Of a stretch of DNA of 64,000 nucleotides, positions 40,583 through 64,000 are shown one piece after another. The stretch spans positions 1,544,546 through 1,608,545 of the forward strand of contig NZ_JACIEA010000001.1 in assembly GCF_014196595.1 (NCBI RefSeq). Reading direction: 5' to 3'. The stretch comes from Sphingorhabdus rigui. GTDB taxonomy: Bacteria; Pseudomonadota; Alphaproteobacteria; Sphingomonadales; Sphingomonadaceae. Every line of letters begins with the position of its first letter. The first letter of the stretch is position 1. Below the pieces are notes generated by a model that had not been told where the DNA came from, did not search any database, and saw nothing but the letters and a program-made list of their open reading frames with translations. The position numbers and the translations under genes were made by a program.

Positions 40583-41278
40583 TCACTTCATAGGCCTTGC
40601 GGAGTCTGCAACTCTTAATCCGAAACCGCGCGCTTCGTTCAGAAGCGACACAACTTCTGCATCACTCGTTTGAGTGAAATCGTGATAGAATTCGCCAACT
40701 GCACCAAACGGCTTATAGGTTTCGAGACAGATGACCTGGTCGCATTCATGACCAAGGTCGCGTGCAACCTCGGGCGGCGCTACTGGGACAGCGAGGATCA
40801 GCCAAGAGGGCTCATTCTTGTTTGCACCACGCAAGGCGGCCCTCATCGTGCCTCCGGTGGCAATGCCGTCATCGACAACGATCACCATACGACCGTTTAT
40901 GCTAATAGGCGCGTGGTCGCCGCAATAGGCTTTGCGGCGCCTGTCTATCTCTGCGAGCTGCCGCCGCATTTCGGCACGAATATAATCAGGACTGGGCCCA
41001 AGTTGCCGAACGATATCTTCATTCAACACAAGTTGCGGGCTCGCCCCATCAACCACGGCCCCGATGCCGAACTCGGCATATCCAGGCGCACCAATCTTGC
41101 GCACAAACAGCAGGTCTAGTGGCGCATCAAGCGCCTTTGCGACCTCGAACGCAACGGGTACCCCGCCACGCGGAAGAGCAAGAATAACCGGATGCTGGGG
41201 CGCAAGGTGCAAAAGCTGCCGAGCAAGCTTGCGACCGGCGTCGCGACGGTCCTCGAATGGATAGTCGCGGTTAAACAT
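40583..41278 (-). CDS. Phosphoribosyltransferase-domain protein
   Basis: A type I PRTase of 231 residues. The PRPP-binding loop VIVVDDGIATGGT occupies about 132-144, and the N-terminal ALPRGGVPVAFEVAKAL and LFVRKIGAPGYAEFGIGAV are typical of the stand-alone PRTases seen with dienelactone hydrolases and erythromycin esterases. The substrate is unknown. AGGGG lies 9 nt before the ATG. It is the last gene of a three-gene operon and begins 2 nt after the upstream stop. In M. tuberculosis Rv2030c a PRTase domain is fused to an erythromycin-esterase domain. Confidence 0.88.
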   Translation of the reverse strand: MFNRDYPFEDRRDAGRKLARQLLHLAPQHPVILALPRGGVPVAFEVAKALDAPLDLLFVRKIGAPGYAEFGIGAVVDGASPQLVLNEDIVRQLGPSPDYIRAEMRRQLAEIDRRRKAYCGDHAPISINGRMVIVVDDGIATGGTMRAALRGANKNEPSWLILAVPVAPPEVARDLGHECDQVICLETYKPFGAVGEFYHDFTQTSDAEVVSLLNEARGFGLRVADSARPMK

Positions 41279-41280
41279 CG

Positions 41281-41943
41281 TCAAATACCCCTTCTTGCAA
41301 ATTGCGCGAAATGCATCGCAAACCAATCGCTGGCATGGGTGATCACCTGATCAAGCGTTCCTGGTTCCTCAAACAAATGCCCCGCGCGCTGAACGATCAG
41401 CAGCTTTTTTGGACAGCTAAGCGCCATGAATGCTTGCTGGTTCAGGGTGATCACGGGCCCATCCAGGCTGCCGACGAGGAGCAATGTGGGTGCGCGAACC
41501 ATCGGCAATGCCGCTCCGGCCATGTCCGGTCTGCCTCCGCGCGATACGATTGCGGCTATGTCCGGATCATCTGCAGCTGCGATGAGCGCAGCTGCTGCAC
41601 CCGTGCTTGCGCCAAAATAGCCAATGGGCAAGTGACGCAGGTCGGCATTGCTCCTCGCCCATTTCGTCGCCGATTTTAGCCGGCTGGCGAGCAATTCGAC
41701 GTCGAACACGTTCCGTCGGTTCTGTTCCTCTTCGGTCGTCAGCAGATCGAGCAACAGGGTCGCCTGCCCCTGCATTCGAAGTTCAGCTGCAACATGATTG
41801 TTCCGCGGGCTGAGACGTCCGCTTCCGCTGCCATGTGCAAAGATAACAAGTCCTGTCGAAACCGGAGGTATCCCGAGCAGCGCGCGAAGGCGATGCGGCC
41901 CAACCAGGATCTCTTGTAGCGGGGTATCAAGGTGTGACGCCAT
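41281..41943 (-). CDS. Alpha/beta hydrolase, dienelactone-hydrolase-like
   Basis: A protein of 220 residues. The oxyanion segment is FAHGSGSGRLSPRN, the nucleophile elbow GYFGASTGAAAAL (Ser), the acid VGSLDGPV and the His AGHLFEEPG. The start at 41943 was chosen because it lies 4 nt after the stop of the esterase gene, which suggests translational coupling. Longer starts would overlap that gene. It is the middle gene between the erythromycin esterase and the phosphoribosyltransferase. Confidence 0.82.
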   Translation of the reverse strand: MASHLDTPLQEILVGPHRLRALLGIPPVSTGLVIFAHGSGSGRLSPRNNHVAAELRMQGQATLLLDLLTTEEEQNRRNVFDVELLASRLKSATKWARSNADLRHLPIGYFGASTGAAAALIAAADDPDIAAIVSRGGRPDMAGAALPMVRAPTLLLVGSLDGPVITLNQQAFMALSCPKKLLIVQRAGHLFEEPGTLDQVITHASDWFAMHFAQFARRGI

Positions 41944-41947
41944 GACA

Positions 41948-43303
41948 TTAAAGCCCAAAAGGATATGTTTCAGGCGCGCCATGCGGCTTTTCATGCCCAA
42001 GCGGCGTCACTGCATGGGACCGTTCAAACCAGACAAAGGCATCGAACTGGTCGGCCAATACCGCCTCGAAATAATGGCTAAGAAATTCGGTCTCCGGCCT
42101 GTAGACCACACCAATTGCGCGCTCTAGCAAAGGCTCGCGCAATATATGCGCCAGCGATTGACGGGAGCGCCCGCGCCAGTCGGTCAACGTACGAGCAAGG
42201 CCGGTTCGCCGAAAGGCATGCTCATAACTATCGGACCGCGCAGGACGCACAGTCTTCACTTGCATATCTGCACCCCATTCGCTCGCCGCTGCGACCGTTC
42301 CGGTGTCAGTGCCAAAACCAATCAGCACAGCATCATCACCATAAGCCACCCGGCAAAGCTGCCCAATGTTGAACTCGCCGTTCCACCCCATTGCCGTCGC
42401 AGACGCATCGCCGATATGCGAATTATGCGCCCAGACGACCGCCTTGGTACCGACACCTCGATGTGCGATGACCGCTTGCAGGGTGCTGAACATATGACGG
42501 TCGCGTAGGTTCCACGATGCAGCACCGCCTTGATAGATGGCGCGGTAATAGCGCTCCGCCTCACGCACGATCCGTGCGTTTTGTGTAGCATCAAACCACG
42601 CTTCACCATCGCTCGCCAGATATCCCAGCCGTTTGTCGAGTAACGTGTGCAGCTGCTCCACTGCTTGTTGCGCGCAGTCGGGTCGTTCGCCGCGCACGAC
42701 GGCGCGGCCATATTTTGCTGGCTCGTCTTGCCATGGAGTCAGGCAACCATAGCGCCATCGCGCCATTGTGGCTTCGTCAGGATCGACCTTGTCGAGATAG
42801 GTGAGCACCGAATGGATGGACTCGCTCAGACTGTAAACATCAAGCCCGTGAAACGACGCCTTCGCGCGGTCGGGCTGACCTTCATTATGTCCGCGCATCC
42901 AGTCGGCAAAGGCCAGTAGTTCGGCATTGCGCCACATCCATGTCGGGAAGCGGACAAAGCCCTCGCCACGGCGCGGCCGCTTTTCATGGTGGCGGACATA
43001 CCCATCGATCCGGGCCGCATCGGGCCAGTCGGCCTCAACCGCGACCACAGTAAAGCCATGATGTTCGATCAGTTGTCGCGTGATCGCCGCGCGCGCATTA
43101 TAGAATTCAGATGTGCCGTGGGTCGCTTCGCCGAGCAAAACGATCTGCGCATCGCCGAAGCGGTCAAAAAACTGCCCAAACGCCTCTTGCTGCTCGGGTG
43201 CAGGCAGCGGTTCGGCATATTGCCGCAACGCATCGACCAGCCGCTTGGACGCTTCTCGCTTGGGCTTGTCCTGCAATGAAATCGTCGTCATGATTTGCAT
43301 CAT
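41948..43303 (-). CDS. Erythromycin-esterase family protein
   Basis: About 451 residues. Conserved elements are VLLGEATHGTSEFYNARAAI, VVAVEADWPDAARIDGYVR, FPTWMWRNAELLAFADWMR, HGLDVYSLSESIHSVLTYLD and KAVVWAHNSHIGDASAT. His and Glu in GEATHG and WAHNSH are the family catalytic residues. Real macrolide esterases are only one branch; this type, linked to a PRTase and hydrolase, is a stress-island protein of unknown substrate, so resistance should not be assumed. Starts at 43303 (GAAG 5 nt upstream) or 43291 are possible. It is divergent from the PEP synthase gene. Confidence 0.85.
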   Translation of the reverse strand: MMQIMTTISLQDKPKREASKRLVDALRQYAEPLPAPEQQEAFGQFFDRFGDAQIVLLGEATHGTSEFYNARAAITRQLIEHHGFTVVAVEADWPDAARIDGYVRHHEKRPRRGEGFVRFPTWMWRNAELLAFADWMRGHNEGQPDRAKASFHGLDVYSLSESIHSVLTYLDKVDPDEATMARWRYGCLTPWQDEPAKYGRAVVRGERPDCAQQAVEQLHTLLDKRLGYLASDGEAWFDATQNARIVREAERYYRAIYQGGAASWNLRDRHMFSTLQAVIAHRGVGTKAVVWAHNSHIGDASATAMGWNGEFNIGQLCRVAYGDDAVLIGFGTDTGTVAAASEWGADMQVKTVRPARSDSYEHAFRRTGLARTLTDWRGRSRQSLAHILREPLLERAIGVVYRPETEFLSHYFEAVLADQFDAFVWFERSHAVTPLGHEKPHGAPETYPFGL

Positions 43304-43356
43304 ACCGGCTTCAATTAGGCAGCGGCATCCGGTTGATTGCGTATGGTTATTGTTAG

Positions 43357-43366
43357 GTAGATTTCC
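43357..43366. promoter_or_regulatory. Candidate FixJ-like word upstream of PEP synthase
   Basis: GTAGATTTCC, within TTAGGTAGATTTCCGGAG, is in the 137-nt divergent region between the esterase operon and the PEP synthase gene. It resembles GTA-N-TTTCCC-like half-sites of rhizobial FixJ targets, as I remember them. It is one of four similar words in this island. Confidence 0.3.
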
Positions 43367-43440
43367 GGAGTTACGCTTCGCATCCAAGAGATTAACTAAA
43401 TCGGCAAGAATATCGATCCGGGCGTTCAGCAGGTAGAGAT

Positions 43441-45843
43441 ATGCCAAAGCCTTCGCAGCATTACGTCCGCTTTATCCGCTGGTTCGATGAGATCGGGTTG
43501 GATGATCTCAACCTAGCTGGGGGGAAAAACGCGTCACTGGGCGAACTCGCCCGGTTCCTTGGCAGCAGCATCAAAGTGCCTGAAGGATTCGTCATAACAG
43601 CGGACGCCTATCGTCAAACCATTGATCGAGACAATCTTTGGCAACGGATGATGGTCATACTTGACCAGACCGACTGGCGAAATCCGAAAGCGACGGGACC
43701 GGCGGCGGCAACATTGCGTGCGATGGTCCAAAATGCGCGGTTACCTGACGGGCTCGTTGCCGATATTGAATTCGCCTACCGCCGGCTTGAACGCGAGTTT
43801 GGACGCGGCGTTGCAGTCGCTGTTCGCAGCAGCGCGACTGCCGAAGATTCTCCGACGGCCTCATTTGCTGGCGTGCACGAAAGTTACCTCAATGTACGAA
43901 GCGCAAAGGCTTTGGTCGGTGCGGTCAAAGATTGCTTTGCATCTTTGTTCAGCGAACGGGCGATCTCCTATCGCATAGATAAGGGCTTTGCCCATCATAG
44001 CGTTGCGCTGTCTGTAGGGGTGCAGCGAATGATACGAGCCGACCGTGCGAGTTCGGGGGTCATTTTTACGCTCGACACCGAAAGTGGTAGCCGTGACGTC
44101 GTCTTGATCAGCGGCGTTTGGGGTTTGGGTGAGGCGATTGTTCAGGGCATCGCCGACCCGGACGAGTTCCTTGTGCATAAACCAACAATGCGGATCGGGC
44201 GCAGCACTATTTTGCGGCGGCGGATCGGGGCAAAGCAGGTGAAACTGGTTTACGGAAAGCGCATGGATGCCGGACGGACAAAATGGCAAACCGTCCCGCG
44301 CAAGATGCAGGCCATGCAATGCCTGTCCGATGCGGAAATACTCGATCTGGCACGTCAGGCAATCCTGATCGAAGGCCACTATAGCACGCATTATGGCAGC
44401 CCGACACCGATGGACGTCGAATGGGCCAAAGATGGCGCTGATGGTGAATTATACATAATTCAGGCACGCCCCGAAACCGTTCACGCGACGGTGGGGGATG
44501 CTGCGCTGAAGCTCTTTCGCCTGACCGGCAGCGGGCCAGTTGTGGTGTCTGGTCAGGCCGTCGGCCAAGGGATCGCCACTGGTGTTGTGCGCTTCGTAAC
44601 CACTAAGGCAGACCTTGCCGAACTCAACGCAGGAGATGTGTTGGTCGCCGAAACGACCGCACCCGATTGGGAATCTGTGATGAAACGCGCTGCTGCAATC
44701 GTCACCGAGCATGGCGGCCGGACCTGCCATGCTGCCATTGTTGCCCGCGAACTTGGCATCCCCGCGATTGTCGGCGCAAAAGGCGCCCGGAGCCTTTTAC
44801 AAGCTGGCCAGCAAATTACGGTATCATGTGCCGAAGGAGAGCGCGGAAAGGTGTATGCTGGCCATATTCCCTTCGCGCTTGACGATGTGGACGTCGCAAA
44901 TATCACGCCAGCCGATGTAGAGATTATGGTGAACATCGGGAATCCGGATATTGCATTTCGCACGGCCGCATTGCCGGTTGCCGGTGTTGGTTTGGCGCGG
45001 ATCGAATTCATCATCGCCAATGCGATAGGCGCCCACCCAATGGCATTGTTGTTCCCGGAACGCGTTACTTCGAAAAAGACCCGGCGACAACTCGACGCCC
45101 TGACCAAAGGCTATCGTGGCGGCGCGGATTATTACACTTCGCGCCTCGCCGAAGGAATTGGCGTCATAACCGCGGCCTTTTATCCGCGGCCTGTCATTGT
45201 GCGGACGTCCGATTTTAAATCAAATGAATATGCGTCCCTGATAGGTGGCGCCGATTTCGAGAAACCAGAAAACAACCCGATGATTGGATTCAGAGGAGCG
45301 TCTCGTTACATGCATCCCGATTTCCGGCCAGCGTTCGAACTCGAATGCGCGGCAATCAAGCATGTGCGCGACGATATGGGCCTTACTAATCTGGTCATCA
45401 TGATCCCTTTCTGCCGCAGTCTGCGCGAGGCTAATGAGGTGCTCGACATCATGGCGCGCAGCGATCTCAACCGCGGTGAGAATGGTCTGAAAGTTTATAT
45501 GATGTGCGAAATCCCGAGCAACGTAATCCTGATCGATGAGTTTGCGAAATTGTTTGACGGTTTCTCGATCGGCTCCAACGATCTGACACAATTGATCCTC
45601 GGCATTGATCGCGACGCCGACATATTGGCAGATAGTTTTAACGAAGAAGATCCAGCCGTATTAAAAATGATCGAGCAAACAATTGCCGGTACCCATAAGG
45701 CCGGTCGCCATTGCGGCATTTGCGGACAGGCCCCGTCGGACCGCCCCGGGTTCGCCAAGTGGCTGATTGACCGGCACATCGACAGCATCAGTCTCAATCC
45801 CGATAGCGTCCTCAGGGTAATGCAACGCCTCGCGTTAGACTGA
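43441..45843 (+). CDS. ppsA: Phosphoenolpyruvate synthase
   Basis: A protein of 800 residues that converts pyruvate, ATP and water to PEP, AMP and phosphate. The N-terminal ATP-grasp region begins LNLAGGKNASLGELARF and includes VAVRSSATAEDSPTASFAG. The phospho-His domain has GGRTCHAAIVARELGIPA (His430). The C-terminal PEP/pyruvate domain ends in CGICGQAPSD (Cys761). It is standard length for PpsA. GGTAGAG is close to the ATG. PEP synthase in a hypoxia-type island suggests gluconeogenic flow during non-growth. It is divergent from the esterase operon and followed by two small genes. Confidence 0.93.
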   Translation: MPKPSQHYVRFIRWFDEIGLDDLNLAGGKNASLGELARFLGSSIKVPEGFVITADAYRQTIDRDNLWQRMMVILDQTDWRNPKATGPAAATLRAMVQNARLPDGLVADIEFAYRRLEREFGRGVAVAVRSSATAEDSPTASFAGVHESYLNVRSAKALVGAVKDCFASLFSERAISYRIDKGFAHHSVALSVGVQRMIRADRASSGVIFTLDTESGSRDVVLISGVWGLGEAIVQGIADPDEFLVHKPTMRIGRSTILRRRIGAKQVKLVYGKRMDAGRTKWQTVPRKMQAMQCLSDAEILDLARQAILIEGHYSTHYGSPTPMDVEWAKDGADGELYIIQARPETVHATVGDAALKLFRLTGSGPVVVSGQAVGQGIATGVVRFVTTKADLAELNAGDVLVAETTAPDWESVMKRAAAIVTEHGGRTCHAAIVARELGIPAIVGAKGARSLLQAGQQITVSCAEGERGKVYAGHIPFALDDVDVANITPADVEIMVNIGNPDIAFRTAALPVAGVGLARIEFIIANAIGAHPMALLFPERVTSKKTRRQLDALTKGYRGGADYYTSRLAEGIGVITAAFYPRPVIVRTSDFKSNEYASLIGGADFEKPENNPMIGFRGASRYMHPDFRPAFELECAAIKHVRDDMGLTNLVIMIPFCRSLREANEVLDIMARSDLNRGENGLKVYMMCEIPSNVILIDEFAKLFDGFSIGSNDLTQLILGIDRDADILADSFNEEDPAVLKMIEQTIAGTHKAGRHCGICGQAPSDRPGFAKWLIDRHIDSISLNPDSVLRVMQRLALD

Positions 45844-45899
45844 ATTGTTACGCAACATTGCGTATCCCACGGCTGCCCAATGTCGTGCAAAACATCGAT

Positions 45900-46259
45900 A
45901 TGACTTGGAAAACCATTCGCTTGGAACTTGCGCGTACGGCAGAATTTCCAGAAGGTTCTGCGGCGCATGCCTATGTGTTGCGGCTGCCAATTGACGACAA
46001 TGGCTTTATAGAACGGTCGGCCATCAAGCATGCAACCCAAAGCCCGATAGTCCATCGCATGTGGCCCAACGAGCCGGATCGGACAGGCGTGGTCATAAGC
46101 CAGCGCGCTGGCTGGGCATTTTCATATGAAGATGGTGATGCCGATGATGAGGGTGTTTTCCAATTGGAACACCATCCAATCAAACCTGGCCAATATTTGA
46201 CCATCACCGAAACAAATGGGGAGCGCCTGCCGTTCAAGGTGGTGAGTTGCCATGCTTAG
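45900..46259 (+). CDS. Conserved small protein of unknown function following ppsA
   Basis: A product of 119 residues: MTWKTIRLELARTAEFPEGS, an AYVLRLPIDDNGFI segment, HRMWPNEPDRTGVVISQRAG and a C-terminal LEHHPIKPGQYLTITETNGE. It is hydrophilic, without signal or TM. I do not recognise a family. The regular beta-rich sequence and absence of low-complexity composition argue for a real gene. The start is uncertain: ATG 45900 lacks a strong ribosome site. It overlaps the next gene by 8 nt, so the two form a pair. Confidence 0.7.
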   Translation: MTWKTIRLELARTAEFPEGSAAHAYVLRLPIDDNGFIERSAIKHATQSPIVHRMWPNEPDRTGVVISQRAGWAFSYEDGDADDEGVFQLEHHPIKPGQYLTITETNGERLPFKVVSCHA

Positions 46260-46683
46260 CTTTGGCCAAATGATAACGCAATTTAGCGGTCCCATCCGTT
46301 ATTTTGTAATGGTCTATTTCGCACGCTTTGCATTGGGCATGATCAGCGAATTCAGGGTTACTCCGGCGGTTGGTCTGAGCGCCGCGTTGCTGATGGAAAT
46401 GCCAGTCATGGCAATAGTCTCGTTTTTCTCAGCGCGGTTTGTGCTGGATAGGGCACCTGATACCAAAACGCCCAGCGACTTCTTGTTCATTGGCTGCACC
46501 GCATTTGTCCTGCTGTTAATTGCCGAAGAGACTATGGCACGGATCCTCAGCGACAGTTCAGTTTTTACTCTCTGGGCAGGCTTGAGCCCGTTTGCGGCGC
46601 TGACCAATGCGACCGTTCTTGGGCTGTTCATGCTGATGCCATTGATTGTCGGTCTAAAGCGCAATCCGGCGGTGCCAAGCTGA
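46252..46683 (+). CDS. Small integral membrane protein of unknown function
   Basis: A product of 143 residues with about four TM segments: PIRYFVMVYFARFALGMIS, VGLSAALLMEMPVMAIVSFF, DFLFIGCTAFVLLLIAEETM and FAALTNATVLGLFMLMPLIV. It overlaps the preceding gene by 8 nt and is likely translated together with it. No family recognised. Both may belong to the ppsA transcript. Confidence 0.72.
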   Translation: MLSFGQMITQFSGPIRYFVMVYFARFALGMISEFRVTPAVGLSAALLMEMPVMAIVSFFSARFVLDRAPDTKTPSDFLFIGCTAFVLLLIAEETMARILSDSSVFTLWAGLSPFAALTNATVLGLFMLMPLIVGLKRNPAVPS

Positions 46684-46777
46684 TGTCAGGCAAGGTGATT
46701 CTTGCAGCGGATCATCCCGTTTTCGAAATCCGCGGTGGCTCATAAAGGTGCATTTAATAGGTCCTGACCCTAGCATC

Positions 46778-46788
46778 CGTATTTTCCC
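46778..46788. promoter_or_regulatory. Candidate FixJ-like word upstream of the UspA gene
   Basis: CGTATTTTCCC is about 82 nt before the UspA start codon, within the 186-nt intergenic region. It resembles the words GTAGATTTCC (ppsA), TACGTAGTTCACC (hsp20/fixL) and GTACTGTTCC (glycosyltransferase). Confidence 0.3.
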
Positions 46789-46869
46789 TGATATGGCGCG
46801 TTCCCCGCGCAGGTTAAGTTCGTGAATACTAAATCGTCGCGATACCGCGCCGCCTGAGGGAGAGTTGAA

Positions 46870-47682
46870 ATGAAATCCCTGTTATTACATGTGCAGGACG
46901 ATGCCGGAATGGAAGCCCGGTTGCAGGCTGCGCTTTCCATCGCACGCGCCACATCCGGTCATGTCAGTTGCCTGCATGTGACCCCGATCAACCTCTATAT
47001 CATGTCAGACGGTATGACTGGCGCTTATATGATGCCCAACTTCATCACAACGCTCGACGAGATGGAAAAGAAAATGCGTGCGCGGATTGAGGAGAGTCTG
47101 AAAAATGAGGATGTATCATGGGACTATGAGCATGTGGACGGCGAACCTGCCCAGGAAATTGTCAGCCGGTCTTCGCTCGCCGACTTAGTCGTTTTGGGCC
47201 GATATCACCACCGCGAAACACGTTACACACCCATCACGTTGATGGGTGATGTCTTACAAAGTGCGCGCGCGCCGATATTGGTGCAGCCTCAGGAGCTGAA
47301 CACATTTGACGTATTCGGGCCCGCCGTCGTTGGATGGAATGGCAGTTTCGAAGCCGCCAATGCGCTGCGCGCAGCACTTCCGCTGCTTAAAATGGCATCA
47401 GCGGTCCACATTGTGACCGTCGAAGAACCAAAAGAGCATCGATTACCCTCGCTTGCCGCTTCGACCTATTTGTCGCGTCACGGTGTAACGTCTGAACTGC
47501 ACGCACGTCCAAAATCAGACATGCCTGTAGAAAAAGCGATTATCGAGACCGCGCAGGTTATGGATGCGGGCTATATTGTCATGGGCGGCTATGGCCACAG
47601 CCGGGCGCGAGAATTTCTTTTTGGCGGTGTAACGCGAACGCTTCTTTCGGAATGTGCTATCCCGCTAATCATGGGACGCTAA
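46870..47682 (+). CDS. Universal stress protein with two UspA domains
   Basis: A protein of 270 residues made of an N-terminal UspA domain (about 1-140) and a C-terminal one (about 148-270). The C-terminal copy has the ATP-binding-type loop MGGYGHSRAREFLFGGVTR, while the first copy has VVLGRYHHRE at the matching place and may not bind ATP. Tandem UspA proteins of this length are typical of hypoxia and stationary-phase regulons. GAGGGAGAG precedes the ATG. It probably starts an operon with the DUF4010 and metallo-hydrolase genes (gaps of 6 and 16 nt). Confidence 0.92.
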   Translation: MKSLLLHVQDDAGMEARLQAALSIARATSGHVSCLHVTPINLYIMSDGMTGAYMMPNFITTLDEMEKKMRARIEESLKNEDVSWDYEHVDGEPAQEIVSRSSLADLVVLGRYHHRETRYTPITLMGDVLQSARAPILVQPQELNTFDVFGPAVVGWNGSFEAANALRAALPLLKMASAVHIVTVEEPKEHRLPSLAASTYLSRHGVTSELHARPKSDMPVEKAIIETAQVMDAGYIVMGGYGHSRAREFLFGGVTRTLLSECAIPLIMGR

Positions 47683-47688
47683 AACCTG

Positions 47689-48954
47689 ATGCCGATGAGC
47701 GATCTTGCGTATCGCGACCTAGGCATCGCATTTGCGGCTGGTTTACTGGTTGGTATTGAGCGTGGATGGCGTCAGCGCGATGTTGCCGCCGGCGGCCGGG
47801 TCGCAGGCGTAAGAACATTCGCTGTGCTCGGCGGGCTTGGAGGGCTGCTCGGCCTAATCCAGCAGGTCTATGGCGCGGCGGCAGCCACCATATTGCTTGG
47901 CGCTGCGGTGCTCATGCTTGTGATTGGATATACCCGTTCAATGTCTTCGCCGGAGGACGTCAGCGTAACGAGTTTGATCGCGGCATTGTCTACGCTGTGC
48001 TTCGGTATGTTGGCCACATCAGGTCATCCGGCATTGGCAATGGCGACTGCTGCTGTCGTCACGCTGATCCTGACGCAACGGCGCGGTTTGCATACTATGA
48101 TCAAAAAGCTGGGTGAAAGTGACGTTATCGCCCTTGCCCGGTTTGCCATCATTGCTGGCGCGATTTGGCCATTCCTGCCTGATGCGCGTTACGGTCCATA
48201 TGCAGCATGGAACCCACGACAACTTTGGTTGGTCGTAGTCTTTGTTACGGGGCTTTCCTTCGCCGGATATGCTGCGAGCCGGATCTTTGGTTCAAAAAAA
48301 GGCGTGTTGGCCACAGCCGTTATTGGCGGTGCTTATTCCTCAACGGCAGTTACCGCTCTGCTATCGCATCGGCTCCGGACAGACCAAACCGGTCAAGGAA
48401 CATTGTCGGCGGGAATAGCACTCGCGACATCCATCATGTTTGTGAGAGTGTTGTTTCTGACCGCCATTATTGCCAATTTCGCATTTATGACAGTGTTGCA
48501 ATTGGCTGGCCCCGCAGTGTTGGTTGGCGCCGTTGCCGGAATGGTATTGCTCCGCGATCAAACGTCGGCGACGTCTACCGAACTTGCGCGCTTGGGAAAT
48601 CCTATCGCTATCATTCCTGCACTTGGATTTCTAATTCTGGTCGCCATCATGGCGGTTGCCGCGCGCTGGGCTGAGATTGAGTTTGGGGGTGGCGGGGCGC
48701 TAGCGCTCATAATCACCATTGGTCTTTTCGACGTCGATGCGGCCATCGTCACGCTTGGCGGGCTGTCTTCCGGCACCCTTAATCCCGGTATTGCCGGCCT
48801 CGCTCTTGTCGGCGCTGTGCTCGCAAATATGCTGGTCAAGATTGGTGTCATCATAATCTATGCCGGTCCAAAAGCGGGAGGAAAGGCAATCTGTGCACTG
48901 GCCCTTGGCGCCGCGACATTGGCGGGCGCAATAGGGTTAGCGATGGCAACTTAA
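47689..48954 (+). CDS. MgtC/SapB-like and DUF4010 membrane protein
   Basis: A protein of 421 residues with about 12 hydrophobic segments. The N-terminal part contains the MgtC/SapB motif IAFAAGLLVGIERGWRQRD (about 13-31) and GVRTFAVLGGLGGLLG. The C-terminal half has the DUF4010 pattern GVLATAVIGGAYSSTAVTAL and GLFDVDAAIVTLGGLSSG. Its function is unknown; related proteins affect survival under magnesium or acid stress. The ATG lies 6 nt after the UspA stop. Confidence 0.85.
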   Translation: MPMSDLAYRDLGIAFAAGLLVGIERGWRQRDVAAGGRVAGVRTFAVLGGLGGLLGLIQQVYGAAAATILLGAAVLMLVIGYTRSMSSPEDVSVTSLIAALSTLCFGMLATSGHPALAMATAAVVTLILTQRRGLHTMIKKLGESDVIALARFAIIAGAIWPFLPDARYGPYAAWNPRQLWLVVVFVTGLSFAGYAASRIFGSKKGVLATAVIGGAYSSTAVTALLSHRLRTDQTGQGTLSAGIALATSIMFVRVLFLTAIIANFAFMTVLQLAGPAVLVGAVAGMVLLRDQTSATSTELARLGNPIAIIPALGFLILVAIMAVAARWAEIEFGGGGALALIITIGLFDVDAAIVTLGGLSSGTLNPGIAGLALVGAVLANMLVKIGVIIIYAGPKAGGKAICALALGAATLAGAIGLAMAT

Positions 48955-56317: not shown

Positions 56318-58601
56318 GGACTTTCAATATTTCGATATCGCGAGCAAAATACCCATTCGGCAGAAATCCGATGCGGCCAGATCGATAAGACCCCGAATTT
56401 CACGCATCGCGCTTATCGGCAATTACCTGCCGCGCAGATGCGGAATCGCTACATTTACCGCCGATATTTTCAACTCTCTAAAATCGCAATATCCCAGCGT
56501 CAAAGTTGACGTTTGGGCGATGAATGACAGTTCCCACAGCTATAATTATCCCTCGGAAGTCAGCGGGAGCATCGCGCAAAATGATCCCATTTCATACCGC
56601 TTGGCGGCTGCAGCCATTTCCGCCAACAAACCCGATCTTGTCTGGCTGCAACATGAATTCGGCATCTTTGGCGGTCGTGCTGGCTGTCACATTCTGAAAT
56701 TGCTGGATCGTGTTTCAGTGCCTGTCGCTGTCACGTTGCATTCGGTCCTTAGCAACCCTGACAGCGACCAACGCCGCGTCACCGATGCATTGCTTAAAAG
56801 ATGCGCCATCGTCATGGTAATGGCGGAGGCGGCTAAGCAGATACTTATCGACACTTATCGATGCGACCCTGCCAAGATTTGCGTCATTCCGCACGGCATT
56901 CCGGATCGGCCATTTACCGCTACCGCGCCTATGAAAGAGCGGTTTGGTTGGAAAAACCGCAAAGTCATTATGACCTTTGGCCTATTGTCGCCGGGCAAGG
57001 GCATCGAGACCGTCATTTTGGCCCTGCCTGCATTAACGCAACGGTTTCCTGAAGCACTATATGTGGTTTTGGGTGCAACGCATCCTCACTGCATTTCCCA
57101 GAATGGCGAAACATACCGCGATAGCCTGAAGGCGATGGCTGACGATCTAGGTGTCTCCAATAATGTCGAATGGATCGATGGCTTTTGTGATACGGAGCAA
57201 CTGCTCGATTATCTGTCTGCCGCAGATATCTACGCCACGCCCTATTTAAACCCTGCGCAAGTGACTTCAGGGACGCTGGCCTATGCAGTCGGTCTGGGCA
57301 AGCCCGTGGTTTCAACCCCTTATGTGCACGCGATCGAATTGCTGGCGGGCGGGCACGGCCATCTTATCGATTTTGGCGACAGCAAGGGGTTCGCGAATGC
57401 GATAATCGATCTTCTGGAAGACGAGGTGGGACTAATGGATCTGCGTAAACGCACTTATGCTCTGAGCCGTAGCATGATTTGGCCTAGATTTTCTGAAGCC
57501 GCTATGGCGCGATTTCAAGAAGGGATACCGCCGTCGGTTGTGCCGACGACACCGATCCGGCCGGTACCTATTCCTGAAACCCTGCCATTTGAAGCGGTCA
57601 TCCGTCACAGCAATTTTACGGGCATTTTGCAGCATAGCCGGTTCGGTGTGCCGGACCGCCGTCACGGTTATTGCATAGACGACAATGCCCGTGCGCTCAT
57701 TTTGGCGTGCCGCAGTCATGCTGATATCATCCAGCGGGATCGCTGGATGGCGGTCTATGCCTCTTTTGTGGACCATGCATGGAACCCCCAAGCTTGCCGG
57801 TTTCGCAATTTTATGGGCTTCGACGGCCAATGGCTTGAGGATATCGGTTCCAATGACTCGAACGGTCGCGCTATTTGGGCCCTGGGTATTGCCGCCGCAT
57901 CCGCCCCAATAGACGGCGTTCGGGATTGGGCGCAGAATTTGTTCGGCGATGCAATCGATCATCTGGCTGGTATTGATTCGCCGCGCGCAAAAGCGTTCAA
58001 AATTCTGGGTAGTGTTGCTGTACAAAATAGCTTGCCCGAGCATCCCGAACTTCTGTCATATATTGTCGAATGGGGCGAGCTACTCGTACAATTGTATCGC
58101 GATACCCAGCGCGACGACTGGCGGTGGTTCGAACCGGTGCTTGCTTATGATAATGCGAGGATTTCCGAGGCATTGATACGCTCAGGCATCCTCCTGCGTA
58201 GGGAGGATTTTGTTCAAATAGGTCTCGCATCGCTCGAATGGCTGAACGAAATTCAAACCAGTTCCAAAGGTACATTTTCGGCGATTGGCTCGGATAGCTT
58301 TAACAGACCGTTTGCTGAGCCCCTTCCGCACGACCAGCAGCCGGTGGAGGCCGCGGCGATGGTGGATGCCTGTGATGCGGCATTTATTGCGACGGGTGAA
58401 CCGGTATGGCAAGATCGCGCGCTCAACGCATATCGTTGGTTTTTAGGCAAAAACGAACATGGCCTTCCCGTCGGTAATGCCGAGACCGGTGCTTGTTTTG
58501 ATGCGCTCACGCCGACAGGCGTTAATTTAAACCAAGGGGCTGAATCACTCCTCGCCTTTCATCTGGCGACCATTTCTATTCAGCCCCATGTCAGACGCTG
58601 A
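56316..58601 (+). CDS. GT4-family glycosyltransferase fused to a C-terminal alpha/alpha-toroid-like domain
   Basis: A protein of 761 residues. The N-terminal half (about 30-420) is a GT-B glycosyltransferase: ALIGNYLPRRCGIATFTADI, LVWLQHEFGIFGG, FGLLSPGKGIETVILAL and YLNPAQVTSGTLAYAVGLGK. The C-terminal half (about 425-755) has helical repeats and conserved YCIDDNARALILACRSH, WLEDIGSNDSNGRAIWALG and YRWFLGKNEHGL, as in six-hairpin glycosidase-like toroids. The 1-nt overlap (TGATG) with the GH130 gene suggests that both act on one glycan, perhaps mannose-containing, but the product is unknown. The start codon is at the foot of a hairpin. Confidence 0.85.
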   Translation: MDFQYFDIASKIPIRQKSDAARSIRPRISRIALIGNYLPRRCGIATFTADIFNSLKSQYPSVKVDVWAMNDSSHSYNYPSEVSGSIAQNDPISYRLAAAAISANKPDLVWLQHEFGIFGGRAGCHILKLLDRVSVPVAVTLHSVLSNPDSDQRRVTDALLKRCAIVMVMAEAAKQILIDTYRCDPAKICVIPHGIPDRPFTATAPMKERFGWKNRKVIMTFGLLSPGKGIETVILALPALTQRFPEALYVVLGATHPHCISQNGETYRDSLKAMADDLGVSNNVEWIDGFCDTEQLLDYLSAADIYATPYLNPAQVTSGTLAYAVGLGKPVVSTPYVHAIELLAGGHGHLIDFGDSKGFANAIIDLLEDEVGLMDLRKRTYALSRSMIWPRFSEAAMARFQEGIPPSVVPTTPIRPVPIPETLPFEAVIRHSNFTGILQHSRFGVPDRRHGYCIDDNARALILACRSHADIIQRDRWMAVYASFVDHAWNPQACRFRNFMGFDGQWLEDIGSNDSNGRAIWALGIAAASAPIDGVRDWAQNLFGDAIDHLAGIDSPRAKAFKILGSVAVQNSLPEHPELLSYIVEWGELLVQLYRDTQRDDWRWFEPVLAYDNARISEALIRSGILLRREDFVQIGLASLEWLNEIQTSSKGTFSAIGSDSFNRPFAEPLPHDQQPVEAAAMVDACDAAFIATGEPVWQDRALNAYRWFLGKNEHGLPVGNAETGACFDALTPTGVNLNQGAESLLAFHLATISIQPHVRR

Positions 58602-59881
58602 TGCTGCAACTGTATCAATCCCCAATACGGTTGCGGGCCGATCCCTCACGTGTCGTGCTGCGGCCTTTCCATCTCGCGTGGAACGCACAAGCCACGAAGG
58701 GACGGATGCTTCAGCTGGTCGATATGGTAAGGGCGCTCGATATGCGAACCGCCAGATCCGAACTGGCCCTCGTTTTTCACGATTTTGAATCGCGGCATTT
58801 GCAGACACAAAATATTCTCATGCAACGATATGAAGAGCTTGAGAAAGATCTGGAACTGGATGGCCGCCGGATTCGCGAAGAAAAGAAGCTGCTTATCGGT
58901 GCCTATTTTTGCCATGAATATAGTTATGCGGCCGCCGCTTTGATGAACCCCAGCGTGACATTACATCCCGATCAAGGGGAGCTTGCCGATGGTTATGTCC
59001 GCATTCTCATCTCGCTGCGGGCCGTAGGAGAAGGCCACATATCGTCGATCGCATTTCGGGAAGGTGTGATAACGACTGACCGCAAATTCGAACTGGTGTC
59101 GCAACCACGTTGCGCAATCGCGGCCGATACATCTGCCGGCGATCCATGCCACCAAAATGGAAATTATGTTTCGGTATTCCGAAGTCCGGACAGTTCGATT
59201 TCGGGAACTGTAATTTTTCCTGTTACCGATGCGCAGCGCAATGGCCTTGAAGATTTGCGGCTAACCAGATTCGAACATGTCGACGGATCAATCGAATGGA
59301 TTGGGACATATACTGCCTATTCAGGCCGCGAAATTCGGTCGGAACTGATGCGTACGAGAGATTTTTCGCGCTTCGACCTTATTCCATTGGAAGGAACCGC
59401 TGCGCAAAACAAAGGACTGTCCTTGTTTCCGCGTGAATTTAACGGGCGGTATAAAATGATCGGACGGCACGACGGCAAAAATCTATTCATTATTGAATCC
59501 GACGATCTCGGCAATTGGGGCGACGGCCAGCTTTTGCTCGAACCGAAATACCCGTGGGAGTTTGTGCAGATTGGCAATTGCGGACCACCCATCGAGATAG
59601 ACGAGGGATGGTTGCTGCTGACCCATGGCGTCGGTGCTATTCGAAAATATTCGATTGGTGCAGTGCTGCTGGACAAAGACGACCCGTCCCGTGTTCTTGC
59701 AAGAACAAGCCATCCTGTCGTGTCAGCGGTCGACGAGGACCGCGAAGGCTATGTTCCCAATGTTGTCTATTCGTGCGGCGGTATCAAAGTGGGCGACGAC
59801 CTATTCCTGCCTTATGGTGTTGCGGATAGTTCGGTTGCGTTCGCATTCCTGTCGATCAAGGACCTGTTGGCCACAATGTAA
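58601..59881 (+). CDS. Glycoside hydrolase/phosphorylase family GH130 protein
   Basis: A protein of 426 residues. The five-bladed beta-propeller pattern of GH130 is suggested by FRSPDSSISGTVIFPVTD, NGLEDLRLTRF (matching the conserved ED-x-R catalytic segment), YTAYSGREIRS, LFPREFNGRYKMIGRHDGKN and CGPPIEIDEGWLLLTHGVG. GH130 enzymes act on beta-mannosides, as hydrolases or phosphorylases. An N-terminal extension of about 140 residues (LADGYVRILISLRAVGEGHI, including helices before it) is seen in the longer members. It is translationally coupled to the glycosyltransferase gene. Confidence 0.85.
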   Translation: MLQLYQSPIRLRADPSRVVLRPFHLAWNAQATKGRMLQLVDMVRALDMRTARSELALVFHDFESRHLQTQNILMQRYEELEKDLELDGRRIREEKKLLIGAYFCHEYSYAAAALMNPSVTLHPDQGELADGYVRILISLRAVGEGHISSIAFREGVITTDRKFELVSQPRCAIAADTSAGDPCHQNGNYVSVFRSPDSSISGTVIFPVTDAQRNGLEDLRLTRFEHVDGSIEWIGTYTAYSGREIRSELMRTRDFSRFDLIPLEGTAAQNKGLSLFPREFNGRYKMIGRHDGKNLFIIESDDLGNWGDGQLLLEPKYPWEFVQIGNCGPPIEIDEGWLLLTHGVGAIRKYSIGAVLLDKDDPSRVLARTSHPVVSAVDEDREGYVPNVVYSCGGIKVGDDLFLPYGVADSSVAFAFLSIKDLLATM

Positions 59882-59917: not shown

Positions 59918-60361
59918 TTACAACCGATATTGTTGAAGCATCTGCCCAATCTCAATCGCAGTGCGTCCAGCATAGTCTTTGTCAATCTCTGCCAACAGAC
60001 GCTGGCGGATGTCGGCTGGTAGCGATTTGCGTATGACACCCATCGCATGCGGTGGGGCGATTAGGATAGCCTGCGCTTCATCGTCCCTCATTACTGAGGT
60101 CAGCATTTCGGCCATCTCTTTAATAAACGTGTCCTCTATGAGCTGATGCAAGTCCACAGCTTCATAGGCACCGCGCCTGTGTCCGGTGCTCTGAAAGGTG
60201 CGTCCTGGTTGGTCATCCCCAAGTTCGGCCGTTGAAGGGGTTATCCGCCGCTCCTGCACCATCAGTTCCAGCGAGGGCTTACGCACATTACCCTTGTTCC
60301 GAAACATCGCCATGCGGGCGCCGTCTACAACCATTATCAGTGTACCATGCGCAATCAGCAT
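59918..60361 (-). CDS. Host-attachment family protein (baeRF-like)
   Basis: A protein of 147 residues. Features are the LMVVDGARMAMFRNKGN-like start (VVDGARMAMFRNKG), DQPGRTFQSTGHRRGAYE, and FIKEMAEMLTSVMRDDEAQA with LIAPPHAMGVIRKSL. This matches the 'protein required for attachment to host cells' family, found widely in free-living alphaproteobacteria and thought to be related to archaeal/eukaryotic release-factor-like domains. A role in attachment should not be taken literally. AGGAGG is 6 nt before the ATG. It lies 67 nt after the P-type ATPase stop on the same strand. Confidence 0.85.
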   Translation of the reverse strand: MLIAHGTLIMVVDGARMAMFRNKGNVRKPSLELMVQERRITPSTAELGDDQPGRTFQSTGHRRGAYEAVDLHQLIEDTFIKEMAEMLTSVMRDDEAQAILIAPPHAMGVIRKSLPADIRQRLLAEIDKDYAGRTAIEIGQMLQQYRL

Positions 60362-60427
60362 TCTCTGCCTCCTATCTGAAACATCGATAATGATGACCTG
60401 CCGATGTTGCTGGTGCGATAGGTATTG

Positions 60428-62989
60428 CTACGGATAATGTGCTGTCGTTGAGAGCGGTTTAAACAGAACCATCTTCATAAATTGCAAGAGTAATATTGCA
60501 CCCGCGCCTGTGGCAATCGCGATAGTCAGATCCTGAATTCCCAACGGCGCAAATTCGAGCAGGGATGTGGTTGCCGGAATTAGCAGTATCGCAGAAGAAA
60601 TGCAGACCACGCTAGCCAAGACATAGATCAGTGCACGGTTTTGTCGCCGTAATGCGGTAAAAATTGATCCATGGAACGAGCGATTTATGATGATCAGCGA
60701 CAATATCGAAGCGACGAGTGCAAAGAAAACCAGTGTCCTGACCTGCGCATCACTATAGCCCTTCCAGATTGCAAAAGCATAGACGCCGGCCAGTAGAACG
60801 AAGCTCACCCCGCCCTGAAAAATGCTCCACATTATCATCCCCCAGGAAAATAGCTTCTCATCAGGTGCGCGGGGCGGACGGGTCATAATATCGGACTCGT
60901 CTTCTTCCGCCTCAAACACAAACGCACATACAGGGTCGATCACCATTTCGAGCAGCGCGATATGAATGGGTCCGAACAAGAGCGGCATACCGATCAGGAG
61001 CGGCCCAAGAGCAAATCCGGCAATCGGGACATGGACAGCGAAGATAAAGGCCATGGCCTTTCGGATATTGTCGTAGATGCGGCGACCGAACGCAATTGCC
61101 TTAACGATAGAACCGAAATCATCGTCCAGCAGGACGATGGATGACGCTTCGCGCGCAACATCAGTGCCGCGATTCCCCATTGCGATACCAATATGTGCCG
61201 CCTTTAATGAAGGCGCATCGTTGACCCCGTCCCCTGTCATGGCAACGATTTCGCCGGAGGCTTTCAATGCTTCCACGATCCGCAGTTTTTGTTCGGGCAT
61301 GGTTCTGGCGCACACCGTCACCTTGGCCAGCCGGTCAGCCACGTGCGCATCATCAAGCGCATCCAGTTCAGCGCCGATGAGGATTTCGCCGTCGGCAAAT
61401 CCGGCCTGTAATGCAATTGACCGCGCGGTTTTGGCATAGTCGCCGGTTATCATCATGACCCGCACACCCGCGGCCCGGCACGCAGCCACGGCATCAGGTA
61501 CGCTGGTCCGTAAAGGGTCAGCGAGGCCAATCAGCCCAATCAGTGAGAAATGATAATCGCAATGCGATTTTGCTGGCTGCAGATCCATACTATCGGCAGC
61601 GGCTACACCCAGAACACGTATGCCCTGTTCGGCCATCATATCGGCGGCTTGTGCAAGTTTTCCTGCTTCGCTTGCGCTCAACCGGCATAAGGTCGCAATT
61701 GCCTCTGGCGCGCCCTTGGCTGCGACGACCAGCTTCTCCGGGGTTTGCCATACATTCGACATTGCGAGCAAGTCGGGGCGCAGGCCGTAATTACAAACAA
61801 ATTTCCATTCTGGAGTGCTTTGCTGCTTTGATGATTGGCCAGCCTCGTGGATCGCAACCTCCATCGGATCGACGGTGGCGACTGCACTGGCGGATATTCC
61901 AGTATCGATCAGTTTCCCATATTCTTTGGGAATGGTCCGATAATCATCAATTTTCGTCGTGCCTTTGTCGGGTATCCACAAATGGGTGACCGCCATACGG
62001 TTCACCGTCAACGTGCCGGTCTTGTCTGTACATAATATCGTGGTCGCTCCCAACGTCTCTATCGCCGCAGCGCGCCGGGTCAGAACGCGCACTTTGCTGA
62101 TCCGCCAAGCGCCCACCGCGAGGAAGATGGTCAACACAACCGGAAATTCCTCTGGCAGCATGGACATGCCAATCGAAATTCCTGCGAGCAGCGCGTCAAG
62201 CCAACTGCCGCGGGTCATCCCATATAATAAGGCGACCGCAATCGCGACAGATGTACCGCCAACGGCACACAGCCTGACGATCTGCATCGTTTCGAGCCTG
62301 AGCCGGGGTGCCTCGGGATCAAGCGCGGCCAATGATTTTCCGATCAGCCCGATTTGGGTCGAAAGCCCCGTTGCGGTAACGCAGGCGGCGCCGCTTCCGC
62401 GGGTTATGATAGATCCCGAATAGACCATGGGCTGATCTTCGCCCCCGGGCCGCAATGCTCCGACATATTCGTCAGCCGACGCGGCACGCTTGATAACAGG
62501 CAGAGATTCCCCGGTGAGGAGCGATTCATCGACTTGAAGATCGTTTGTGGCCAGGAGGACTGCATCAGCGGCAATCCGGTCACCTTGATCGAGCAGCAAG
62601 AGATCGCCGCGCACCACATCCCGGCCGGCCACACGTTGCCGCTCCCCATCGCGAATGACAAGCGCGCGCGGAGCTGACAAATCGCGCAGTGCATCGAGTA
62701 CATGCTCGGTCCGGCTTTCCTGCATGATTGTCACCATGACGGAAAAGGATGCAAAGGCCGTCAGGATTAATGCCTCTGTAAGATCGCCGAGCAACAGATA
62801 AGCCAGCCCGCCGAGCATCAGCAGTGCGAGCATCGGTTCACGTACAACATCAAGTATAATGCGGAAAAGCGATCGTTTCCCTGATTTGGGGAGCATGTTG
62901 GGGCCGTCTTCGGCCAAGCGTTTCGTCGCCTCTGCAGTCGACAGTCCCGCAATGTTGCTCAAGGCGTTCAGAGTGAAGGGTTCGGACAT
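60428..62989 (-). CDS. P-type cation-transporting ATPase (P2/Ca2+-type)
   Basis: A protein of 853 residues. An N-terminal cation-ATPase domain precedes TM1-2, the actuator DESLLTGESLPV (about 154-165), TM4 MLPEEFPVV, the phosphorylation site DKTGTLTVNRM with Asp322, the nucleotide-binding motif KGAPEAI, the hinge TGDGVNDAPSLKAA and six C-terminal TMs. The PEEFP sequence and the TM6 segment MVIDPVCAFVFE differ from Ca2+ pumps of the SERCA type, so the ion is uncertain. CtpF (Rv1997) is a comparable P-type ATPase of the DosR regulon. ATG 62989 was chosen; an upstream ATG adds 11 residues. Confidence 0.9.
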   Translation of the reverse strand: MSEPFTLNALSNIAGLSTAEATKRLAEDGPNMLPKSGKRSLFRIILDVVREPMLALLMLGGLAYLLLGDLTEALILTAFASFSVMVTIMQESRTEHVLDALRDLSAPRALVIRDGERQRVAGRDVVRGDLLLLDQGDRIAADAVLLATNDLQVDESLLTGESLPVIKRAASADEYVGALRPGGEDQPMVYSGSIITRGSGAACVTATGLSTQIGLIGKSLAALDPEAPRLRLETMQIVRLCAVGGTSVAIAVALLYGMTRGSWLDALLAGISIGMSMLPEEFPVVLTIFLAVGAWRISKVRVLTRRAAAIETLGATTILCTDKTGTLTVNRMAVTHLWIPDKGTTKIDDYRTIPKEYGKLIDTGISASAVATVDPMEVAIHEAGQSSKQQSTPEWKFVCNYGLRPDLLAMSNVWQTPEKLVVAAKGAPEAIATLCRLSASEAGKLAQAADMMAEQGIRVLGVAAADSMDLQPAKSHCDYHFSLIGLIGLADPLRTSVPDAVAACRAAGVRVMMITGDYAKTARSIALQAGFADGEILIGAELDALDDAHVADRLAKVTVCARTMPEQKLRIVEALKASGEIVAMTGDGVNDAPSLKAAHIGIAMGNRGTDVAREASSIVLLDDDFGSIVKAIAFGRRIYDNIRKAMAFIFAVHVPIAGFALGPLLIGMPLLFGPIHIALLEMVIDPVCAFVFEAEEDESDIMTRPPRAPDEKLFSWGMIMWSIFQGGVSFVLLAGVYAFAIWKGYSDAQVRTLVFFALVASILSLIIINRSFHGSIFTALRRQNRALIYVLASVVCISSAILLIPATTSLLEFAPLGIQDLTIAIATGAGAILLLQFMKMVLFKPLSTTAHYP

Positions 62990-63076
62990 TATTGTGCAGT
63001 TTTGCCCGCTGCACATCAGCATACTATCAGGACTTTACCGGACTGGGGGATGGGCGCGTTCATTGGCGCGGTATTT

Positions 63077-64000
63077 TTATGGTTTGATGGCCACTTTCAA
63101 CACGCCGTCGCGCTGGTGCGCAAACACATCATAGGCGGTCTCGACATCGTCAAGGCTGAAATGGTGCGTCACCAGTGCCTTTGAATCGAATCTGCCCGAT
63201 GCCACGACCTCCATTAACCTTCGCATCCGCTCCTTGCCGCCAGGGCAAAGCGTCGTGACGATGCTGTGATCGCCAAGCCCGGCGGCAAAGGCGTCGAGCG
63301 GGATTTTAAGATCATTTGAGTACACGCCAAGCGAAGATAGCCTGCCGCCTGGTCGAAGTACGCGAAGCGCGCCCTCGAATGTCGATTGCTGTCCCAATGC
63401 CTCGATTGCGACATCGACACCACGCCCGCTGGTCAACCGCATGACTTCAGATACGGGGTCGGTTCTGGAAAAGTCGACAACATGGTCCGCGCCCATATGC
63501 TTGGCCATATCGAGCCGTTCCGTGATGTTATCGATCGCAATGATATTTGAAGCCCCCATCAACCGGGCGCCTGCTGTTGCACATAGTCCGATTGGTCCCT
63601 GAGCAAAAATGGCAACGCTGTCGCCGATGCGGATATGTCCAGCTTCGGCACCGCCCATACCGGTCGACATGATGTCGGGGCACATCAATACCTGCTCATC
63701 GCTGATGCCATCGGGTATCACGGCAAGGTTGGCCATTGCGTCAGGCACGATCAGATAGTCCGCTTGCGCCCCGTCGATGGTGTTGCCCAACCGCCAGCCA
63801 CCCATCGACTGCCAGCCATGAGGCGTGTGGCATCCGCATTGCGAGTGAAATCCCAATAATGATGCGTTGGACGTGCCGGACGGCGTGATGGCGCCCGCAA
63901 TCACGCGCTGTCCGACCTCGAATCCTTCAACGGCACTGCCCAGTTGCTCAATCACACCAACGGGCTCGTGGCCTATGGTTAGTCCCGATTTTACGGCATA
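63077..64000 (-). CDS. Zinc-dependent NAD(P) alcohol dehydrogenase (5' end cut by window edge)
   Basis: The visible 307 residues form most of a medium-chain dehydrogenase, reading in frame from the right edge. GHEPVGVIEQLGSAVEGFEV carries the catalytic-zinc His and Glu of the GHE motif. MCPDIMSTGMGGAEAGHI and the Rossmann motif AQGPIGLCATAGARLMGA follow, then IIAIDNITERLDMAKHMGAD. It most resembles secondary alcohol (isopropanol-type) dehydrogenases. The N-terminal Cys ligand region lies outside the window. It is upstream of the P-type ATPase gene on the same strand with an 87-nt gap. Confidence 0.88.
   Translation of the reverse strand, partial: YAVKSGLTIGHEPVGVIEQLGSAVEGFEVGQRVIAGAITPSGTSNASLLGFHSQCGCHTPHGWQSMGGWRLGNTIDGAQADYLIVPDAMANLAVIPDGISDEQVLMCPDIMSTGMGGAEAGHIRIGDSVAIFAQGPIGLCATAGARLMGASNIIAIDNITERLDMAKHMGADHVVDFSRTDPVSEVMRLTSGRGVDVAIEALGQQSTFEGALRVLRPGGRLSSLGVYSNDLKIPLDAFAAGLGDHSIVTTLCPGGKERMRRLMEVVASGRFDSKALVTHHFSLDDVETAYDVFAHQRDGVLKVAIKP

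Follow-up and report, generated by a model that had tools for sequence, protein, structure and literature searches.

The window analyzed here is a 64-kb stretch (64,000 nucleotides) of the 2.47-Mb genome of Sphingorhabdus rigui (label G000), in which an initial annotation had placed, at 40583..64000, an oxygen-limitation survival block under a FixL/FixJ (FixLJ) oxygen sensor, resembling the DosR hypoxia regulon of Mycobacterium tuberculosis. Our results suggest that this region of about twenty stress and survival genes is likely a cassette for survival at low oxygen, under the control of the FixLJ system that it encodes. A survival block of this kind is supported by the retained haem residues of FixL, by FixJ-like operators predicted ahead of most operons and by the recurrent linkage of the island's gene families to FixLJ in related genomes; its gene families, the sharing of the predicted operator and the limits of the cassette relative to a genus-mate (G233) were likewise established by computation. 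All families named in the initial annotation were recovered at their places by Pfam and NCBIfam searches.

FixL (54000..55538, + strand) consists of an N-terminal PAS_4 domain, a second PAS domain aligning with solved FixL haem PAS domains, and a histidine kinase, with no GAF domain match in Pfam. Its best model is the rhizobial FixL (483 bits, under the NCBIfam equivalog cut-off of 850), and the haem-ligand His and two Arg residues are identical in the aligned solved chains 8js5 and 1d06. We take these residues to be His200, Arg206, and Arg220, and 8js5 to be from B. japonicum. FixJ (55441..56178, +; its true start is probably inside the listed open reading frame, ORF) scores 249 bits, just below the NCBIfam cut-off of 255, and by Pfam carries a receiver with its phosphoacceptor and a GerE, i.e., LuxR-type, helix-turn-helix (HTH). 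Both parts of FixJ also align with the solved structure 5xso, the HTH closely, and on sequence the identity of the sensor pair is upheld. FixJ is the sole response regulator among the 40583-64000 ORFs given to Pfam, and FixL is the sole full-length match in the genome, where 11 others cover kinase parts at E values of 2.5e-21 or weaker. The genome gave no match to the ccoN model and has one cydA. In many FixL loci a second, weaker FixJ-profile match (~50-150 bits; e.g., L198 at 10.8 kb, L200 at 10.9 kb, and L224 at 11.7 kb) lies beside fixJ and might be a FixT-like receiver.

Inspection by eye first showed a palindrome, TACGTA, in the region between hsp20 and fixL. Among the 2073 six-mers that occurred 15 times or more, it then showed the strongest enrichment when 40 FixL stretches from 35 genomes were compared with 20 arbitrary stretches (60 vs. 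3). Whole-genome counts and rounded genome sizes gave an expectation of 9.9 for the 60 sites observed around fixL, a six-fold excess, and TACGTA was above expectation in 25 of the 35 genomes. Alignment of the sites yielded TACGTA-N4-TCC-NN-A, from which a matrix was built with 56 training sites in 34 genomes, none of this genus. The FixJ site published for S. meliloti fixK, TAAGTAATTTCCCTTA (as given in PMC4999443), scores 14.2 of a possible 21.2 on this matrix, a value reached by none of 20000 random 16-mers. R. palustris fixK is described with GTACGTAG, and its promoter binds FixJ (as reported in PMC13327599).

The 30.1-kb island scan (the window from 39901 plus 6 kb beyond it) returned 10 strand matches scoring above 13 at nine places, one of them inside the phosphoenolpyruvate (PEP) synthase gene, while 400 kb taken from elsewhere in this genome returned 7, for an island expectation of 0.56. 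Predicted boxes occur in the divergent esterase/PEP synthase promoter (43352..43370, +, score 16.7), before orfA (45847..45865, +, 11.7), the universal stress protein gene usp (46774..46792, +, 12.7), the triple-BON gene (50522..50540, -, 15.8) and the DUF6629 gene (52106..52124, -, 15.6), in the divergent hsp20/fixL promoter (53902..53920, +, 17.3), and before the baeRF12 gene (60417..60435, +, 13.6). Two more, which may be outside the island, lie upstream of an alpha/beta-hydrolase gene at 38863-39882 (38794..38812, -, 12.5; and 38760, 12.1). Sites above 12 were found 47-87 bp before the start codons of nine genes, encoding the 38863 hydrolase, the esterase, PEP synthase, Usp, BON, DUF6629, Hsp20, FixL, and baeRF12 proteins, compared with 2 of 244 background genes having such a site within 250 bp. 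At the level of 150-bp promoters, 7 of 11 in the island exceeded the threshold vs. 2-4 of 271 in the background, and 300 permuted matrices marked at most 3 of the 11. Including the 38863 hydrolase raises the count to 8 of 12, although it was added as an island promoter only after its sites had been seen. These putative operators before most operons, together with the comparison of related loci, support the common regulation that had been inferred for the block. No box was found upstream of GT4-GH130, the P-type ATPase gene or acg; acg is probably cotranscribed with hsp20, and GT4-GH130, the ATPase, and the alcohol dehydrogenase, which also has no box, may be passengers or otherwise controlled.

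The predicted boxes recur elsewhere in the family. Twenty unseen FixL regions, four of them from genomes whose other FixL locus had served in training, contained 42 matches above 12, or 10.8 per 100 kb, compared with 1.2 in arbitrary regions, 3.7 in the background of this genome, and 3.4 in Acg loci lacking FixLJ. Boxes preceded 4 of 5 orfA, 4 of 6 Usp, and 2 of 2 Hsp20 ORFs in the unseen loci vs. 4 of 154 control ORFs, and these three appear to form a common core of FixJ targets. Homologues of the island's lipoprotein (5 of 6 with an upstream box in training loci, 0 of 2 in unseen loci) and of baeRF12 (4/5 and 0/1, respectively) also look like core targets on the training data alone, the few unseen cases giving no backing.

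Profiles made from the island's own proteins were used to examine how its families are linked to FixL. A FixL match (E up to 1e-60) was found in 132 of 298 family genomes; within the genus it was present in this genome and G233, and four other genus-mates searched gave no match. Seventeen island families were scored at 55 FixL places, taken from high-ranking matches (five of 40 kb, two of <20 kb, the rest of 20 kb), and in two sets of controls: 20 arbitrary 20-kb regions of related genomes (self-chosen round coordinates in 17 genomes, 16 of which belong to the FixL set too) and 20 other regions of this genome. At least one family occurred at 38 of the 55 FixL places and two or more at 26, whereas none of the 20 arbitrary regions and one of the 20 from elsewhere in this genome had any; because the genomes are related and the P values ignore kinship, the latter are optimistic. 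The families that stood out were Usp (24/55), the ATPase (20), Hsp20 (14), orfA (11), the lipoprotein (8), beta-CASP (6), and baeRF12 (6), each absent from all 20 arbitrary regions; in the other regions of this genome Usp was found in 1 of 20, and the ATPase, Hsp20, and orfA in none. The alcohol dehydrogenase (14/55 places vs. 3/20 controls) and the 38863 hydrolase (9/55 vs. 4/20) were not specific to FixL. Linkage of the families to FixLJ does recur in related genomes of this family, but it is loose and the gene order is reshuffled.

G233 is the exception to this reshuffling, having, in the window's order, the hydrolase, PEP synthase, Usp, beta-CASP, BON, Hsp20, FixL, FixJ, GH130, baeRF12, and ATPase genes; the esterase, phosphoribosyltransferase (PRTase), orfA, DUF4010, DUF6629, Acg, and GT4 were not found in its 40 kb. 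Strong homology to G233 extends only across 41302-62968 of the window, with scattered segments below 35 bits elsewhere in the 40 kb. Since strong homology is confined to the block and the four other genus-mates gave no FixL match, it behaves as a cassette within the family and is apparently portable. The closest named block, in 'Sphingomonadales bacterium Ga0077559' (L064), has the same gene order at 62-88% identity (Hsp20, Acg, BON, beta-CASP, DUF4010, Usp, orfB, orfA), to which a profile search added PEP synthase; DUF6629 is missing from that spot in L064, and an additional ~3 kb separates Usp from orfB. At usp, box and flank together (GCATCCGTATTTTCCCTGATATGGCGCG) are the same in L064 as in this genome, although the surrounding sequence has diverged, and G233 has an identical 19-bp Usp box as well. 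For the boxes of the hsp20/fixL and esterase/PEP synthase promoters, conservation in G233 is partial. All three genomes share a stretch around CATTCCCGATT ahead of BON; in G233, the core of the predicted BON box is degraded. Acg is an occasional member: counting this genome, 11 of 149 family genomes have a close homologue, and Acg is present at 2 of the 55 FixL places, one of these a weak 62-bit match. GH130 was also seen near FixLJ in L183 (G233), L038, L096, L130, and L198.

We infer an O2 response, activation as the direction of control, the operon structure, and the product roles as follows. O2 bound at the haem of the second PAS domain of FixL would keep the kinase off; as O2 falls, FixL would phosphorylate FixJ, and FixJ~P would bind TAmGTA-N4-TCCnnA boxes ~30-90 bp ahead of start codons. 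Boxes in seven intergenic regions would thereby turn on nine transcription units, as judged from gene spacing: esterase-hydrolase-PRTase and, divergently, PEP synthase; orfA-orfB; usp-DUF4010-betaCASP; BON; hsp20-acg and, divergently, fixLJ; DUF6629; and baeRF12. Hsp20 may then protect proteins, Acg may act in flavin and redox chemistry and Usp in stress signaling, while beta-CASP and baeRF12 could tune RNA and translation, PEP synthase could redirect carbon, and BON and the lipoprotein could protect the envelope.

Several observations weigh against this proposal. Seventeen of the 55 FixL places had none of the 17 families, and the linkage of the PRTase, PEP synthase, BON, DUF4010, esterase, GH130, and Acg was not individually significant. 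Over the whole island, the 14 matches above 11 were equalled by the best of 100 permuted matrices (mean 6.35), so that this count does not separate true from permuted matrices and only the promoter-level test does. Six of the 20 unseen FixL loci had no match above 12. Across the family, boxes were few before fixL itself (4 of 35 cases in training and 2 of 21 in unseen loci), BON (1 of 5, training), PEP synthase (1 of 4, training), beta-CASP (0/5 training, 0/1 unseen), and the ATPase (1 of 12 training, 0 of 9 unseen); at the corresponding position in G233, the baeRF12 box is not conserved. In addition, six Acg-anchored FixLJ loci, four of which are titled Sphingomonas or Sphingopyxis, were not enriched (3.5 matches above 12 per 100 kb vs. 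3.4 in the Acg loci lacking FixLJ; TACGTA twice in 113 kb).

The FixL places devoid of island families, the reshuffled gene order, and the six unenriched Acg loci would all fit a stress hotspot that collects accessory genes, in which direct control by FixJ stops at its own gene and a FixK gene, while the rest answer to FixK or other regulators. A FixK-like gene does lie nearby, and PMC6515984 marks two Bradyrhizobium genes, the nitroreductase gene blr4652 and bll4651, as direct targets of FixK2. However, no TTGA-N6-TCAA site occurs in the window, yet predicted FixJ-like boxes stand at 7 of 11 island promoters, and such boxes precede orfA, Usp, and Hsp20 in unseen loci; we regard the hotspot as unlikely. 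It is more doubtful still that the motif belongs to another NarL/LuxR-type regulator traveling with FixLJ. The second FixJ-like ORF of many FixL loci and a LuxR-type ORF outside the window (L055:4162-4446) would be candidates for such a regulator, but the matrix fits the published FixJ site and the Pfam search of the block's ORFs returned FixJ as the only response regulator. A low-oxygen cassette under direct FixJ control remains the reading that we prefer.

Some features are shared with the mycobacterial DosR island. Both pair a haem sensor kinase with a NarL/LuxR-type regulator, and Hsp20, Acg, Usp, PRTase/esterase, and P-type ATPase families occur in both, going by the Rv assignments of the DosR regulon members; Hsp20 (53323..53826) indeed adjoins Acg (52120..53223) in the window. 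In contrast, the sensor here is a PAS-type FixL rather than a GAF-haem DosS/DosT, and the 20-bp DosR box, in the consensus that we assume, has no match in the window at up to 3 mismatches. Among solved chains, 2ymv, presumably a mycobacterial Acg, matches the last third of Acg at an E value of 1e-5, and Usp matches two chains at 1e-3, neither of them mycobacterial Rv2623. Of 356 Acg relatives found, 80 were kept and examined, with phyla taken from record titles: most are Proteobacteria, none has an actinobacterial title, and a few, from metagenome bins, bear the names Cyanobacteria, Nitrospirae, Chlorobiaceae, Eremiobacterota, or Thermodesulfobacteriota, which leaves room for some movement of Acg between phyla. 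An hspX-acg-like adjacency is kept in 1 of the 80 Acg loci (L064), and a homologue of this Hsp20 occurs anywhere in 2 of 80, although many of these loci end at contig ends and a divergent Hsp20 could escape detection. The esterase/PRTase set of the initial annotation is present as families, but the PRTase, alpha/beta-hydrolase, and erythromycin esterase are three neighboring genes with no fusion, whereas Rv2030c is a PRTase-esterase fusion. Genuine kinship with the DosR island, through transfer between phyla and replacement of the regulator by FixLJ, could account for the shared effector families, the Hsp20-Acg neighborhood and the Acg relatives in bins titled other phyla; given the missing DosR box, the weak similarity to the solved mycobacterial Acg, the mostly proteobacterial relatives, the unconserved adjacency, and the separate esterase and PRTase genes, we consider this highly improbable, and neither kinship with DosR nor a transfer from Actinobacteria is supported. 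On sequence comparison, the resemblance is best read as convergence, not descent. A similar comparison with DosR is drawn in a Burkholderia paper on lxa (PMC6127331).

Low-oxygen stress blocks are already known in Burkholderia and Bradyrhizobium. The lxa region of Burkholderia cenocepacia, as described in PMC6127331, PMC3759415, PMC9104464, and PMC9733578, is likewise a large stress and metabolism block; low O2 is reported there to induce it, persistence in anoxia to require it, and some strains to lack it, and it has been compared with the DosR regulon. It has several Usp genes, and the present block has one tandem Usp; the FixLJ homologues, BCAL2210/2211, are numbered away from the lxa genes and its suspected regulator is the Anr/FixK-type BCAM0049, in the account of PMC6127331. 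The Bradyrhizobium diazoefficiens run bll4644-blr4659, members of which are induced in microoxia, also contains Usp, host attachment protein, nitroreductase, and PEP synthase genes; PMC6515984 marks bll4651 and blr4652 as direct targets of FixK2 but not the other members seen, and lists no fixL in the run, whereas here the sensor pair lies inside and predicted FixJ-like boxes precede the operons. Rhizobial and Caulobacter FixLJ-FixK systems share the FixL haem residues, the FixJ HTH, and the FixJ operator, the last being a prediction here, but in this genome many stress operons carry a predicted box and no ccoN was found. According to the account of Tsoy et al. (PMC4999443), fixK is the sole known conserved direct FixJ target, further sites in Rhizobiales precede nifA, fixX, and one hydroxylase gene, and in Sphingomonadales only FnrN of the FixK/FnrN pair was found. 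In Caulobacter, the functions described for FixLJ concern terminal oxidases, haem synthesis, fixK, and fixT (PMC7078487). Two Usp genes of Sphingopyxis granuli rise ~3-4 fold in anoxia, in a paper whose main text contains neither 'FixL' nor 'FixK' (PMC6472365). Since fixK is the sole conserved target reported and FnrN alone is found in Sphingomonadales, a direct, multi-operon FixJ regulon in sphingomonads appears to be new within the open-access literature.

We see about an even chance that, more generally, FixJ of Sphingomonadaceae is the direct master of a portable hypoxia-survival regulon whose sensor pair, operators, and effectors move together, independent of nitrogen fixation and cbb3 respiration, and thus a convergent alphaproteobacterial counterpart of DosR in which the same effector families were recruited by a haem kinase and a NarL-type regulator. 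The main role known for FixJ is the activation of fixK. If, in a large group of environmental aerobes, it also governs a transferable survival cassette directly, oxygen-sensing dormancy programs would have arisen at least twice, with different sensors and similar effectors, pointing to a minimal toolkit for life without oxygen. The predicted boxes provide a list of testable targets, orfA included.

The remaining features are given from left to right, with start codons picked by inspection. On the minus strand lie the PRTase (40583..41326, PF00156), the alpha/beta-hydrolase (41281..42000; below the Pfam cut-off, with a colinear 59% homologue in G233), and the erythromycin esterase family protein (41948..43306, PF05139), whose start was chosen at 43304-43306 although the longest ORF begins at 43447. 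These are followed on the plus strand by PEP synthase (43441..45843; NF005057/TIGR01418 above cut-off); orfA (45900..46259; start chosen from the alignment), a small protein recurrent in FixLJ loci with a predicted small beta-rich fold (model pLDDT 83.5); orfB (46252..46683, no Pfam family); the tandem Usp (46870..47682, PF00582); an MgtC/DUF4010 membrane protein (47689..48954; PF02308, PF13194); a beta-CASP metallo-hydrolase, likely an RNase (48971..50539; PF10996, PF07521); and the triple-BON protein (50628..51278, PF04972 three times). The DUF6629 protein (51373..52047, PF20334), the Acg-family FMN-binding oxidoreductase (NF047509, 284 bits vs. a cut-off of 199), and the small heat-shock protein Hsp20 (PF00011) are on the minus strand. 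Beyond FixLJ are, on the plus strand, a GT4 glycosyltransferase (56316..58601) and a GH130 mannoside phosphorylase family protein (58601..59881, PF04041) and, on the minus strand, the baeRF12/Host_attach protein (59918..60361; PF18856, PF10116), a P2-type cation ATPase (60428..63022), and a zinc alcohol dehydrogenase cut by the window end (63077..64000, PF00107). The 'host-attachment protein' of the initial annotation does match Host_attach (92 bits), but baeRF family 12, which is release-factor related, scores slightly better (102 bits), and attachment may therefore be a misnomer.

As for the limits of the block, the core of 40583..64000 holds, but it probably extends left and may extend right past the window. 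The left edge probably includes a CC0125/CC1285 family lipoprotein gene (39929..40537, +, NCBIfam), the family that recurs at 8 FixL places. On the right, the block may reach a FixK-like Crp gene ~4.7 kb past the end. There, at L055:2461-5486, we noted two Crp/FNR-type genes, a PAS protein, and the LuxR-type ORF; the second Crp gene (L055:4686-5486) is FixK-like by NCBIfam, and a predicted box (13.4) overlaps its listed start codon. The window's top-scoring FixJ-like box (19.7), at 34368-34395, lies just past the stop of an HlyD/ABC transporter operon, with no clear downstream gene. Finally, GCATTTAATAGGTCCTGACCC (21-23 bp), which was not seen in 20 other stretches of this genome, occurs twice just past the window, inverted and ~240 bp apart (L055:249-269 and L055:491-511), and these copies look like the ends of a small inverted-repeat element. 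A single copy before usp (46750-46772), followed there by TA, abuts the Usp FixJ box.

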